A stretch of 41,225 bases of DNA from Patescibacteria group bacterium (GTDB taxonomy: Bacteria; Patescibacteriota; Doudnabacteria; UBA920), in NCBI GenBank assembly GCA_023484515.1, contig JAMDAY010000020.1, positions 1 to 41,225 on the forward strand, given 5' to 3'. The translations under genes and the position numbers were made by a program. Every line of letters starts with the position of its first letter. The first letter of the stretch is position 1. A model generated the notes under the pieces. The model searched no databases. It saw only the letters and a program-made list of their open reading frames with translations, and had not been told where the DNA came from. This document shows positions 201-4,117 of this stretch, one piece after another.

Positions 201-210
201 TTTGTCATTT

Positions 211-1725
211 ATGATTCGCACCCGTTTTGCCCCCTCGCCAACCGGCTATGTGCATATCGGCAGCCTGCGCACCGCGCTGTTCGCTTTTTTGTTTGCGAGG
301 CATAACAACGGCAAGGTTATCTTGCGCGTGGAAGACACTGACCGCACCCGCTTGGTGGAAGGGGCTGTTGACAACCTGCTAAAAGTAATGAAGCGGGTCG
401 GTATTAATTTTGACGAAGGATTTTACCTGGATAATCAAAATCAAGTCAAGGAAAGGGGAGAGGCCGGGCCGTATCTGCAATCACAGCGATTGCAGCTTTA
501 CCAAAAACACGCCTTGGAGCTTATTGAAAAAGGCAGGGCTTATTACTGTTTTTGCAGCGAACAGCGCTTGGAGGAATTGCGGAAAGAACAGGCCGCGCTA
601 AAAAAACCGCCAATGTACGACCGCCACTGCCGAAACCTGGCCAAAGAGCAAATTGCCGAAGAAACGGAAAGATGCCGCAAAGAAGGGCGTAATCCGGTTA
701 TCCGTTTTTCCATGCCCCAAGAAGGGCAGACGGTTTTGCATGACTTAATTTACGGAGACATTACATACGAAAATAAAATTTTAGACGACCAAGTTATTTT
801 AAAATCCGACGGGTTCCCAACATACCACCTGGCCGTGGTAATAGACGACCATTATATGCAAATTAGCCATGTTATCCGCGGCGAAGAATGGCTGCCTTCG
901 GCCCCCAAACACGTTTTGCTATACCAAGCCTTCGACTGGAATGCTCCTGCGCATGCCCATTTCCCGCTAATTTTAAATCCTGATAAATCTAAGCTTTCCA
1001 AACGGCAGGGCGACGTGGCTGTAGAAGACTTTCTGGCCAGAGGATATCTGCCTGAGGCGCTGGTTAACTTTGTCGCATTTTTAGGATGGAACCCCAAGAC
1101 CGAACAAGAAATTTTCAGTATGGAAGATTTAATCAAGCAATTTGACCTCGCAAAAATTAATAAAGCCGCCGCTATTTTTGACATTAATAAACTGGATTGG
1201 ATAAACAGCCTGTATATTCGGGCAAAATCGGACAGCGAATTAACCGACCTGCTCATTCCGTACTGGGAAGAAGCAATAGGGACGCATACTATCCGCCCGT
1301 TTAAGGATAACAAGGAATACCTGGAAGCCATTGCATCCTTGGAAAAAGATCGGCTTAAAAAACTTTCCGAAATAGGGGAGAGAACCAGATACTTCTTTAT
1401 GGAACCGGAATATGCCCCTAATTTGCTGGTCTGGAAAAAATCAACGGCAAGGGAAACTAAAGAAAAACTTTTAAAACTGTACGACCATCTCAATAAATTA
1501 GATACCAACACGCTAATTTACAAGGAAAACCTGGAAAAAGACCTAAAAAACTTTATTTTACAAAACCAATTTGACAATGGGTCAATTTTATGGCCTTTGC
1601 GCACTGCCATGACAGGGCTGGATAAAAGTCCAGGGCCGTTTGAAGTTACCAGTACTTTAGTTTCAGGCTTAGGAAAAGGCGAAATCTTAAAACGCTTGCA
1701 AAAAGCTATTAATAAACTGGCATAA
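211..1725 (+). CDS. gltX: glutamyl-tRNA synthetase
   Basis: Class I aminoacyl-tRNA synthetase that charges tRNA with glutamate in the cytoplasm. The product is 504 residues, normal for bacterial GluRS. HIG is at residues 15-17 and the KMSKS counterpart KLSKR at 261-265. A zinc-type insertion shows C113-x-C115 and C140; the usual fourth ligand two residues after the last Cys is Asn here, so metal binding may be altered. The ATG at 211 was chosen because it gives the standard MxRTRFAPSPTG N-terminus; an in-frame TTG at 202 adds only three residues. There is no clear Shine-Dalgarno sequence. No GlnRS is seen in the window, so a non-discriminating role with GatCAB is possible but untested. Confidence 0.95.
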   Translation: MIRTRFAPSPTGYVHIGSLRTALFAFLFARHNNGKVILRVEDTDRTRLVEGAVDNLLKVMKRVGINFDEGFYLDNQNQVKERGEAGPYLQSQRLQLYQKHALELIEKGRAYYCFCSEQRLEELRKEQAALKKPPMYDRHCRNLAKEQIAEETERCRKEGRNPVIRFSMPQEGQTVLHDLIYGDITYENKILDDQVILKSDGFPTYHLAVVIDDHYMQISHVIRGEEWLPSAPKHVLLYQAFDWNAPAHAHFPLILNPDKSKLSKRQGDVAVEDFLARGYLPEALVNFVAFLGWNPKTEQEIFSMEDLIKQFDLAKINKAAAIFDINKLDWINSLYIRAKSDSELTDLLIPYWEEAIGTHTIRPFKDNKEYLEAIASLEKDRLKKLSEIGERTRYFFMEPEYAPNLLVWKKSTARETKEKLLKLYDHLNKLDTNTLIYKENLEKDLKNFILQNQFDNGSILWPLRTAMTGLDKSPGPFEVTSTLVSGLGKGEILKRLQKAINKLA

Positions 1726-1791: not shown

Positions 1792-1821
1792 TTTACTTAA
1801 ATTGCATTTTTTTGATATAAT
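1792..1821 (+). promoter_or_regulatory. promoter of the M23 peptidase gene, near-leaderless
   Basis: TTTACT (1792-1797), 18-bp spacer, extended -10 TGATATAAT with TATAAT at 1816-1821. Only 9 bases separate the -10 box from the ATG at 1831, so transcription should begin at or within 3 nt of the start codon. Confidence 0.6.
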
Positions 1822-1830
1822 ATTAATGCA

Positions 1831-3138
1831 ATGAAATTCAACAAAGATACCAAAACTAAAATAAAAGCCATTTTAGTGATTATATTGTCGCTGGTTTTAA
1901 ACTTTTCCCGCGTTTCTGCGGAAACTGCTGACAACGCGGTAGACAGCTTAAACCTGCAAAAACAGGAAAGGCAAAAAAAATTAGACGCATTGAACAAACA
2001 AATTAAGGATTATACGCAGCAAATAGCAACAGCCCAATCTTCGGCCAACACTCTAAAAAACCAGATTACCATCTACGATAAGCAAATTACCGCGACCCAA
2101 CTGCAGATTGAAGCCAAACAAACGCAGATTGAAGATACCAGCCTGCAGATATCGGAATTGGAAAAATTAATTGACCAGAAAACCAAGGATATCGCGGAAA
2201 ACAGGAAAATCCTGGCGGAATTGATAGTCCAGTTAAACGAATTTGACAACAGTTATGTTTTAAAAACCACGCTGGCAAGCGGCAATCTTTCGGATTTTTT
2301 GGACCAGGTCCAGTATACTCAAAATTTTCAGGATAAAATTTACCAGTTAGTCCAAAAAATTAAAGACTTAAAAGCCAAACTGGAATCTGACGAACAGGAT
2401 CTTAAAGTCCAATTGGCCAACCTGCAGGACTTAAAGGAAGAGTTGGAAATTTCCCAGGAATCCTTAACCGCCCAGCGCGACCAAAAACAAACCTTGCTTA
2501 CACAGACCAGGGGCCTGGAATCCAATTATCAAAGGTTATTGGCTTCCAGCAAAAACGAAGAGCTTAGTCTGCAAAAAGAAATAGACGACCTGGATGCAAA
2601 AATTCGGGCCAAACTTGGCAATAAAGTTATAGAAAGTTCCAAGGGCGCCCTGGCATGGCCAATGGACGGAGTGCTAACCCAAGGATACGGCAACACCGGC
2701 TTTACCGCCTTGGGATATACGTTCCATAACGGCATAGACGTGGCCGCGCCTGCCGGACAGCCCATATATGCCGCAGCAGACGGCATAGTGCTTGACACCG
2801 ATCACTCTGACACTTCTTATGGCAATTGGGCGGCAGTAAAACATTCCATACCTACCCAGAAAAGCGGCACGATAAATATTGTCACGCTATATGCGCATAT
2901 GCGCACAATTAAGGTGTCACCGGGCCAATTCGTGAAAGCCGGCGATCTGATTGGCTACGAAGGCAACACCGGCAATACCACTAAAAAATTATACGGGCCA
3001 AGCCGCGGCTATCATATACACTTTGGCGTTTACGACGCCGAAGGTTTCGGCATAAATCCCGGAGCATACCAAAAAATTTACGGCCCTTATAAGGTGCCTT
3101 ACGGGTATACTTATAATCCGATGAGTTTCCTGCAATAA
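1831..3138 (+). CDS. exported coiled-coil M23 (LytM) peptidase, EnvC/PcsB-like
   Basis: Predicted secreted murein hydrolase of 435 residues. A hydrophobic segment at residues 11-29 ends in a signal-peptidase-like VSA (28-30). Residues 35-265 are heptad-rich coiled coil. The C-terminal LytM domain keeps the zinc and catalytic residues: H299 and D303 (HNGID), H356 (YAHM), H395 and H397 (HIHFG). The coiled coil plus M23 order is that of EnvC and PcsB, which in other bacteria are activated by FtsEX; ftsEX lies 11 kb away in this window, so a functional link is an inference. It has its own promoter and follows gltX by 105 bp without an obvious terminator. Confidence 0.88.
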   Translation: MKFNKDTKTKIKAILVIILSLVLNFSRVSAETADNAVDSLNLQKQERQKKLDALNKQIKDYTQQIATAQSSANTLKNQITIYDKQITATQLQIEAKQTQIEDTSLQISELEKLIDQKTKDIAENRKILAELIVQLNEFDNSYVLKTTLASGNLSDFLDQVQYTQNFQDKIYQLVQKIKDLKAKLESDEQDLKVQLANLQDLKEELEISQESLTAQRDQKQTLLTQTRGLESNYQRLLASSKNEELSLQKEIDDLDAKIRAKLGNKVIESSKGALAWPMDGVLTQGYGNTGFTALGYTFHNGIDVAAPAGQPIYAAADGIVLDTDHSDTSYGNWAAVKHSIPTQKSGTINIVTLYAHMRTIKVSPGQFVKAGDLIGYEGNTGNTTKKLYGPSRGYHIHFGVYDAEGFGINPGAYQKIYGPYKVPYGYTYNPMSFLQ

Positions 3139-3180: not shown

Positions 3181-4074
3181 ATGACATCAAAATCATTCTT
3201 AAAGAATTCGCTCCTGGTAATTATGGCGGCCGACATTTTCTTGGCGCAGGCCAACTTGGCCTTGGCCGCGGACACGGGCGGATACGTTGGCGTCCAGGAA
3301 ACCATTACCAGGTATTTGTGCACCCCGACGCCGACTCCGGAAGAAGCTAATAACACTTTTAAAATAAACACTTACCAAACCGCGGCCCAAAAAAACCAAA
3401 ACCAATACGACTTATACCTTTGCATCAACAGGATATATAAATTTGCCATTGCCATTGGCAGCAGCATTGCCGTCTTGTTTATTGTAGTAGCGGGGTATAT
3501 TTACATGTCAGCCGAAGGCAGTCAGGAAGCCGTTGACAAGGCCAAGTCCATTTTAACCAGCAGCATTGCCGCCATGGTCATCTTATTCGGCGGTTATGTG
3601 CTGCTTAGGGCCATAAACCCCGAATTGATCCAATTCCAAAGCGTCCAGCCGCCCAGCGTTAAAGTCCCAATAATTACCGGCACTGGAGCATGCACCGGAT
3701 GCGTGGATTTTGGCACGGAGTTTGCCGTAAACGGAACGCTTCAACCTGGGAAAAATACATTTCTGCAGCCTGCCTTAATAACCAAACTAAGTTCTTTAAA
3801 AAGCAAGGATCCCAATTTTAGGATAAACGAAGCTTATCCGCCTACAGTAACCCATTCCGACCCCTGTCATAATGACGGAAGCTGCGCTGATATAGCTTAT
3901 ACCGGCACCATGAGTTCGCAAAACCTGAATGCCTTTTGCCAAAAAGCCAAAGATTCCAGACTTTCCATAACCAATGAATATTACAATTTAAATTACACTG
4001 CACAGCAGATTCCGGCCTGTGGAGCAGCAAAAAAATATGACACCACCACAGGTGGACATTTACATGTAAAATAA
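3181..4074 (+). CDS. TrbC/VirB2-like two-TM protein with M15-like C-terminal domain
   Basis: 297 residues. An N-terminal signal-like segment (residues 8-29, ending LALAAD) is followed by two hydrophobic helices (about 85-110 and 125-147) in the layout of VirB2/TrbC pilins, a type often annotated in CPR genomes. The remaining 130 residues hold THSDPCHNDGSCADIAY and a terminal GGHLHV, which resemble the H-x6-D and H-x-H zinc signatures of M15 D,D-peptidase folds. The order signal, two TMs, exported metallo-like domain is unusual for a pilin. It follows the M23 gene by 42 bp and ends at a strong terminator, so both are probably one transcript. The M15 assignment is by motif only. Confidence 0.6.
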   Translation: MTSKSFLKNSLLVIMAADIFLAQANLALAADTGGYVGVQETITRYLCTPTPTPEEANNTFKINTYQTAAQKNQNQYDLYLCINRIYKFAIAIGSSIAVLFIVVAGYIYMSAEGSQEAVDKAKSILTSSIAAMVILFGGYVLLRAINPELIQFQSVQPPSVKVPIITGTGACTGCVDFGTEFAVNGTLQPGKNTFLQPALITKLSSLKSKDPNFRINEAYPPTVTHSDPCHNDGSCADIAYTGTMSSQNLNAFCQKAKDSRLSITNEYYNLNYTAQQIPACGAAKKYDTTTGGHLHVK

Positions 4075-4087
4075 ATTTAACGTGTTA

Positions 4088-4117
4088 AACCCCAAGGTCC
4101 TCCCCTTGGGGTTTTTT
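4088..4117 (+). terminator. intrinsic terminator after the pilin-like gene
   Basis: Perfect 10-bp stem AACCCCAAGG (4088-4097) / CCTTGGGGTT (4104-4113), 6-nt loop, T-run following. Confidence 0.9.

Follow-up and report, generated by a model that had tools for sequence, protein, structure and literature searches.

The 297-residue protein encoded by ORF 3181-4074 of the window (the whole 41,225-nucleotide stretch of DNA analysed here, i.e., contig C12 of a 1.3 Mb source genome that is 97.8% complete and belongs to an ultrasmall, Doudnabacteria-like Patescibacterium) is probably a VirB1-type, wall-opening hydrolase of a Patescibacterial T4SS, carried on a VirB2-like pilin stem. The first-pass annotation had described a pilin-type protein fused to an M15-like exported domain, and this architecture was borne out: the stem scored above the Pfam cut-off of its family, and the head was modelled with an M15/LAS fold (Table 1). 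In the mechanism we propose, a signal peptide would export the N-terminus of the fusion, the two pilin-type helices would hold the protein in the membrane with their short loop inside, and a zinc-dependent M15/hedgehog-like head would project outward into the wall zone, where it should cut stem peptides. The fusion would fill the job of VirB1 for the Patescibacterial T4SS jointly with the M23 peptidase encoded just upstream, and the head would represent an exchangeable slot—with SLT, SLT_3, M15_4, C39_2 and other M15-like domains occupying the same position on the same stem. Zinc binding, catalysis, the topology of the fusion and the service of the window's own copy to a T4SS are predicted properties in this scheme.

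Table 1. Features of the window and of related loci; positions without a locus prefix refer to the window.
Feature	Position	Strand	Basis or remark
ORF, 297 aa: signal-like N-terminus, T4SS_pilin stem and hedgehog/M15-fold head	3181..4074	+	ATG start
Hydrophobic N-terminus, aa 1-30	3181..3270	+	signal peptide by eye; helix 2-31 in full-length model
Conserved pilin-type stem, aa 73-159	3397..3657	+	PF18895 match, aa 81-136; alignment; modelled helices 76-110 and 115-145
Head, aa 168-297, M15/LAS (hedgehog-like) fold	3682..4071	+	alignments, profile match, model, fold searches
H225, conserved	3853..3855	+	in register with hedgehog active-site His (weak profile match)
HNDGSCAD, aa 230-237; predicted zinc ligands H230 and D237	3868..3891	+	alignments, shuffle test
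E266, invariant Glu of NEY motif	3976..3978	+	alignments
HLHV, aa 293-296; H295 predicted third zinc ligand, H293 possible catalytic His	4057..4068	+	alignments, shuffle test
gltX, start of conserved gene order	202..1725	+	by eye
Promoter-like site before the M23 gene	1792..1821	+	such sites no commoner than chance (5 found, 7.3 expected)
Exported coiled-coil M23 peptidase, directly upstream of the fusion, conserved partner	1831..3138	+	PF01551, 2.1e-23
Terminator-like hairpin, 11 pairs and T run, 13 bases past the stop	4087..4114	+	
929-aa SLT_3 protein, next after virB4	L074:10413-13199		
Second type-A head copies in f3	L040:4860-5378, L041:2740-3279, L043:4812-5381		
f2 loci with unfused stem between gatA and gatB	L104, L105, L107, L108, L110, L111, L112		
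f2 surface proteins ending in the stem	L113:7828-10857, L114:6002-8929, L115:5546-9295, L116:5419-7116		

The identity of the stem could be narrowed by Pfam comparison. T4SS_pilin (PF18895) matched it with 29.8 bits against a curated cut-off of 26.6, whereas TrbC/VirB2 (PF04956) reached 16 bits on the ORF, below its cut-off of 27.9; the N-terminus, initially labelled TrbC/VirB2-type, therefore belongs to the T4SS_pilin family and not to TrbC itself. Two NCBIfam models of pilin-like conjugal transfer proteins also touched the ORF, both sub-threshold. The full-length structural model placed the three helices of Table 1 ahead of a folded head, with low confidence overall (pLDDT 68.8, pTM 0.45). 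Among 15 aligned relatives, stem identity to the window protein was 57-72% in ten and 38-49% in the remaining five, and a stem profile set the window stem (E 5.9e-43) apart from the array pilins of the source genome (7.6e-14 or weaker). Within the family of the source genome (f1, 22 genomes including the source), 11 of the 19 fusions tested reached the T4SS_pilin cut-off and 8 fell below it. The pilin family itself was detected in 367 of 379 genomes of a Patescibacteria sample and in 0 of 14 controls.

The conserved residues of the head include those of a putative metal site. The H-x6-D signature and terminal HLHV reported at first pass are both present (Table 1), and the combination of H-x2-G-x3-D with H-x-H in the last 14 residues arose once when the window head was shuffled 20,000 times (5e-5). 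H230, D237, E266 and H295 were invariant across the first ten aligned heads; in a second set of 13 heads, H225, H230, D237, E266 and H293 were invariant, and H295 was replaced by Ser in two (L046 and L047). The roles assigned to H293 and H295 are presumed from hedgehog and MepA. The terminal H-x-H is altered in heads of five loci (L046, L047, L055, L057 and L058; HFS, FHV, FHLE), which are perhaps inactive or have differently built metal sites. Heads of the window's type (type A hereafter) also carry conserved cysteines of the disulphide type. Genes for DsbA-like thioredoxins adjoin fusions at L064:5190-5933 (PF13462, 8.7e-38), where the gene sits between an SLT and an M15_4 fusion, and at L048:3750-4400 (2.4e-20)—neighbours that fit the conserved cysteines of the heads.

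From a structural perspective, modelling of the head by itself gave a confident prediction (pLDDT 89.9, pTM 0.85). Structure prediction and superposition on M15 enzymes, the check suggested at first pass, related the fold to M15 and did not refute that reading as far as the fold goes. In VIA-align, hedgehog N-domains ranked at the top (Z 10.2, rmsd 2.5 over 106 residues), followed by MepA (Z 7.8), LdcB (7.2), LysECD7 (6.5), ChiX (6.5) and VanXY (6.4), with the DD-peptidase 1lbu at Z 6.0—by the program's own caution, a Z below 8 may say little by itself. Foldseek likewise gave the leading ranks to hedgehog N-domains, at a best E of 1.9e-3 and with none under 0.001; ChiX, an RB49 peptidase, LysECD7 and MepA came lower. 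A profile of ten heads returned eight matches among PDB sequences at E ≤ 10, seven of them hedgehogs, and in the best of these, a weak match to Sonic hedgehog (E 0.012), H-x6-D aligned in register; a single-sequence PDB search gave no match. None of the M15 Pfam models passed on the window head, VanY being touched by one of ten heads at E 0.081, and neither SLT on the head nor HH_signal (the hedgehog N-domain) on the window was matched, the latter model reaching 20 bits against a cut-off of 22.1 on a head of another class (L011). We take the head to have an M15/LAS fold that, as modelled, is nearest to hedgehog and MepA, both of the H-x-H type, and not to E-x-x-H D,D-peptidases. Thus, the earlier comparison with zinc D,D-peptidases stands as far as the fold is concerned and gives way on the closest relatives and on Pfam membership. 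A viral origin of the head found no backing, as tblastn in three viral-contig scans yielded no relative; these scans use short patterns, so distant viral relatives could be missed.

An M23 gene lies directly upstream of the fusion in all 18 f1 genomes where the contig reaches that far (the window and 17 others), and also upstream in the f3 loci L033, L040 and L043, as well as in L024, which is cut at the locus edge. The gltX-M23 pair occurs by itself in 6 of 6 loci viewed in families f2, f4 and f5 (with one gene between gltX and M23 in L122), ruling out that M23 always requires the fusion. The stem has further settings in f2. In all seven f2 loci viewed, an unfused stem gene separates gatA from gatB; like gltX and nifS, these two genes were named by eye. 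Elsewhere in this family, long surface proteins (566-1250 aa, exported) have the stem at their C-terminus (Pfam-confirmed for L114), an arrangement that favours the stem being a plain anchor in some settings. Two f2 genomes encode an exported, C39-like protein (by eye) near gltX-M23 on the other strand (L117:3988-4746 and L119:3188-3934), and at the gltX-M23 locus of G023 the stem itself carries a fused C39_2 domain. The source genome itself contains five Mur-ligase-domain genes, from which it follows that the organism probably makes its own wall.

We also observed that the stem is retained while the head varies. The stem profile recovered 21 genes in 19 f1 genomes at E < 1e-22, and the 20 readable heads (the G009 gene is cut by a contig end and was left out) fell into eight classes: type A in five (G000, G020, G002, G008 and G011), SLT in five (8.9e-15, 9.4e-18, 1.4e-9, 2.6e-11 and 2.7e-12), SLT_3 in one (9.3e-7), M15_4 in one (2e-17; L027), and four further classes with H-x2-G-x3-D, namely B (three), C (two), D (one) and E (two). 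In f3, heads of type A (G035 and G031), class D (G027) and Peptidase_C39_2 (G023, 2.6e-12) were found, and the type-A head occurs a second time directly after the f3 fusion or one gene past it, there preceded by a single N-terminal helix (Table 1). Two f1 loci contain tandem fusions, with SLT followed by type A in G011 (L065) and SLT followed by M15_4 in G007 (L064). Where Pfam names the replacement, it is a domain with known cutting activity on peptidoglycan or, in the case of C39_2, on peptides. Classes B-E are M15-like by motif only, since hhalign comparisons with the window type, based on two-sequence alignments, were not significant (E 0.015-0.2) and PDB profile searches with classes B, C and E gave no firm match: none for class B, 19 matches for class C, all of them hedgehogs (best E 0.12), and unrelated enzymes for class E at E 0.3 or worse. 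H-x2-G-x3-D was present in 8 of 8 heads checked across types A-E, and H-x-H fell within the last 14 residues in six of these, being absent from L009 (class B, ending in E-x-x-H) and L013 (class C).

Stem identity hardly depended on the head, averaging 54.2% between genes with unlike heads (134 pairs) and 52.5% between genes with like heads (19 pairs), for the 18 of 21 f1 genes compared (omitting the SLT gene of G007, G009 and G013), while unlike heads shared 22.5% identity against a shuffle level of 21.0%. Mapping the eight head labels onto a tree of the M23 proteins (16 of 18 loci, without G019 and G009; 3 of 13 inner branches well supported; one label for each two-fusion locus, SLT for G011 and M15_4 for G007) required 10 changes, with a minimum of 7 and a shuffled mean of 10.7. 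Since 76 of 200 shuffles were as low, the head classes do not cluster overall, and head class tracking ancestry as a whole could be ruled out; clustering is seen for classes B and C taken singly (18 and 26 of 500 shuffles). Given that stems are equally alike irrespective of head, that unlike heads are near shuffle level and that labels are unclustered overall, the sequence comparisons indicate that stem and locus are inherited while heads get replaced.

The connection to secretion emerged from genomes beyond these two families. Type-A heads were found in 11 of the 379 phylum-sample genomes and in 5 of the 22 of the source family, with at least 4 of 10 loci assigned to Candidatus Doudnabacteria or Doudnabacteria-type, the source's own order. 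A search for the same fusion in other CPR, as originally proposed, showed that pilin-head fusions do recur there: pilin-type-A fusions follow virB4 in Wolfebacteria (L044), Zambryskibacteria (L046) and Komeilibacteria (L047 and L048). We extended the linkage analysis to wider DNA around four genomes outside f1 and f3 carrying the type-A head (L123-L126), identifying virB4 by a P-loop_TraG or tblastn match. Outside f1 and f3, all seven testable loci have virB4 upstream of the type-A-head gene, at 0-3.1 kb and in the same orientation; pilin fusions account for six of them (L044, L046, L047, L048, L123 and L125) and a non-pilin protein for one (L126). L124, where the contig ends, and L045, which starts within the gene, fall outside these seven. 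In L123 and L125, PrgI precedes a split virB4, which the fusion follows; in L126, which belongs to the source's own order (f4), virB4 directly adjoins a type-A head on another membrane segment, a virB4 that had shown earlier in L056. The same two-gene split of virB4 recurs in L044, L046, L123, L125 and L126, excluding a frameshift. Four of the six virB4-linked pilin fusions reached the T4SS_pilin cut-off (L044 and L055/L123 did not), and the terminal H-x-H is altered in the virB4-linked L046 and L047. The window gene and the virB4 of the source genome lie on separate contigs (C12 and C33), and no virB4 was seen near the f1 fusions of L064, L065, L067, L068 and L069 or the f3 fusions of L040 and L043, in loci of 10-14 kb.

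Beside virB4 on C33, the source genome encodes PrgI, a 929-aa protein with SLT_3 at its end (2.5e-6), and the 178-aa product of a partner gene. At the gltX-M23 locus of G004 (L069), a pilin stem carries this SLT_3 domain (51% over 154 columns) and is followed by the same partner gene (39% over 141); L124 lines up pilin-SLT_3, a partner gene and pilin-type A. Because SLT_3 and its partner occur in both the virB4 and the M23 settings, the sequences indicate that the two places hold interchangeable cassettes. That PF18895 and PF18896 (SLT_3) are neighbouring accessions hints that the family authors met both in related proteins. The 929-aa protein resembles the window protein in having a wall-hydrolase domain, one that with its partner also occurs on a pilin stem in L069, and differs in having a long, other N-terminal part in place of the pilin stem and SLT_3 in place of the M15-like head. 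With this protein beside virB4, the window gene would not be the sole wall cutter of the T4SS. No PF01464 SLT protein was detected in the source genome, whereas the control for this search was positive in 8 of 14 genomes. Elsewhere in the genome, six pilin-type genes follow ftsH as an array on C11; the product of one (L062:8508-9299) combines a T4SS_pilin stem (6.1e-10) with a peptidoglycan-binding domain (PF01471, 1.2e-8). A second, ICE-like T4SS on C33 (L073, 5001-25000) includes a virB4-type ATPase, a coupling protein (TrwB/TraG matches), an M23 peptidase and a pilin-like protein below cut-off, together with what appear by eye to be a recombinase, a reverse transcriptase and ubiquitin-system-like proteins.

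These observations can be read in four overlapping ways. The T4SS wall-cutter interpretation draws on the stem score, the head fold, the exchange of heads, the M23 neighbour (18/18), the virB4 linkage (7/7), the occurrence of SLT_3 with its partner in both settings and a source genome free of PF01464 SLT proteins. Against it count the position of the window gene off the virB4 contig, the five f1 and two f3 loci without virB4, the SLT_3 protein already at the source T4SS, the f2 stems that are unfused or end surface proteins as a plain anchor might, the 6/6 gltX-M23 loci without fusion, the lack of a passing M15 Pfam model, the altered H-x-H of L046, L047, L055 and L058, and the 8/19 f1 fusions below the pilin cut-off. 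In a second reading, the stem would be a membrane anchor only and the protein an ordinary hydrolase of the cell's own wall, acting with M23 in growth or division and having no tie to secretion in this lineage. The f1/f3 gene adjoins M23 and not virB4, the stem also ends the long f2 surface proteins, and the Mur-ligase-domain genes imply that there is probably an own wall to remodel. We nevertheless consider this explanation unlikely: homologues with the same head type stand beside virB4 in every testable locus, the conservation of the stem (57-72% in 10 of 15 relatives, 38-49% in five) exceeds what an anchor would need, the SLT_3-partner cassette bridges the virB4 and M23 settings, and gltX-M23 manages without a fusion in f2, f4 and f5.

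Alternatively, the fusion could be a true pilus subunit whose heads, displayed on an extended filament, cut the host wall at the contact site. Membership of the stem in the T4SS_pilin family agrees with this, head exchange would suit changing host walls, and pilin arrays occur in some Patescibacteria (available parts of PMC12102498) as well as in the source genome; the f1/f3 gene, however, lies outside the pilin array and away from virB4, and a filament role is quite improbable. Moreover, it would be unusual for every subunit of a VirB2-type filament to bear a head of 130 residues or more. About equally improbable is a head that holds zinc in a hedgehog-like manner and binds the wall or the host surface without being an enzyme. 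Its nearest fold is indeed that of hedgehog, whose zinc site is, to our knowledge, not known as a wall peptidase; the loss of H295 in L046 and L047, the altered H-x-H pair in L055, L057 and L058 and the missing M15 Pfam match on the window head point in the same direction. Yet the window protein retains H225, H230, D237, E266, H293 and H295, and its relatives fill the head slot with SLT, SLT_3, M15_4 and C39_2 domains.

Comparison with described systems places the T4SS wall-cutter interpretation in context. In pCF10, PrgJ is followed by PrgK, and in Gram-positive T4SS operons VirB4 is followed by VirB1. The fusion shares with the VirB1/PrgK/TraG hydrolases an exported wall-hydrolase domain, a position just after virB4 in homologues of the window gene, and the mixing of domains, as seen among the fusion heads; it differs in being built on a VirB2-like stem with an M15/hedgehog-type instead of an SLT head, and in that the f1/f3 fusion gene lies beside M23, away from virB4. 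T4SS hydrolases are described as mixing SLT, CHAP, LytM and muramidase domains (available parts of PMC12857230). With the Patescibacterial VirB2-like pilins (PF18895), the window protein has in common a signal-like N-terminus and two helices separated by a short loop, to which it adds an exported, enzyme-like head of 130 aa. With the M15/LAS peptidases (MepA, VanXY, LdcB, ChiX) and the hedgehog N-domain, it shares the fold, H-x6-D and H-x-H, and is set apart by a head that is 14-16% identical to hedgehog, without an M15 Pfam match, and that carries the conserved disulphide-type cysteines.

A 2025 survey of Patescibacteria (Quinonero-Coronel et al., PMC12102498) reports, in its available parts, VirB2-like pilins, pilin arrays in some members and few VirB1 proteins, inferring that the pilus does not require VirB1; no mention of pilin-hydrolase fusions was found in these parts. 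A full-text literature search, with subscription papers and preprints mostly outside its scope, likewise returned no report of such a fusion. The pilin-hydrolase fusions beside virB4 are a candidate replacement for the missing VirB1 activity, and are easily overlooked in counts that go solely by the pilin domain. A bolder version of this idea, possible though doubtful, is that Patescibacteria merged VirB1 and VirB2 into pilin subunits with interchangeable wall-cutting heads, the cutter being brought by the channel or pilus itself and the heads being swapped in the course of evolution to match the current host's wall. Head exchange on a conserved stem also shows which kinds of wall bond may need cutting. 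In Saccharibacteria, the T4SS is essential for growth on the host, in a role described as unknown in the available parts of PMC12102498 and PMC11665869, and the T4SS wall-cutter idea could be tested directly in cultivated members of this group, if such a gene is present. More broadly, the fusion pattern suggests that a means of opening the wall for secretion has been overlooked.
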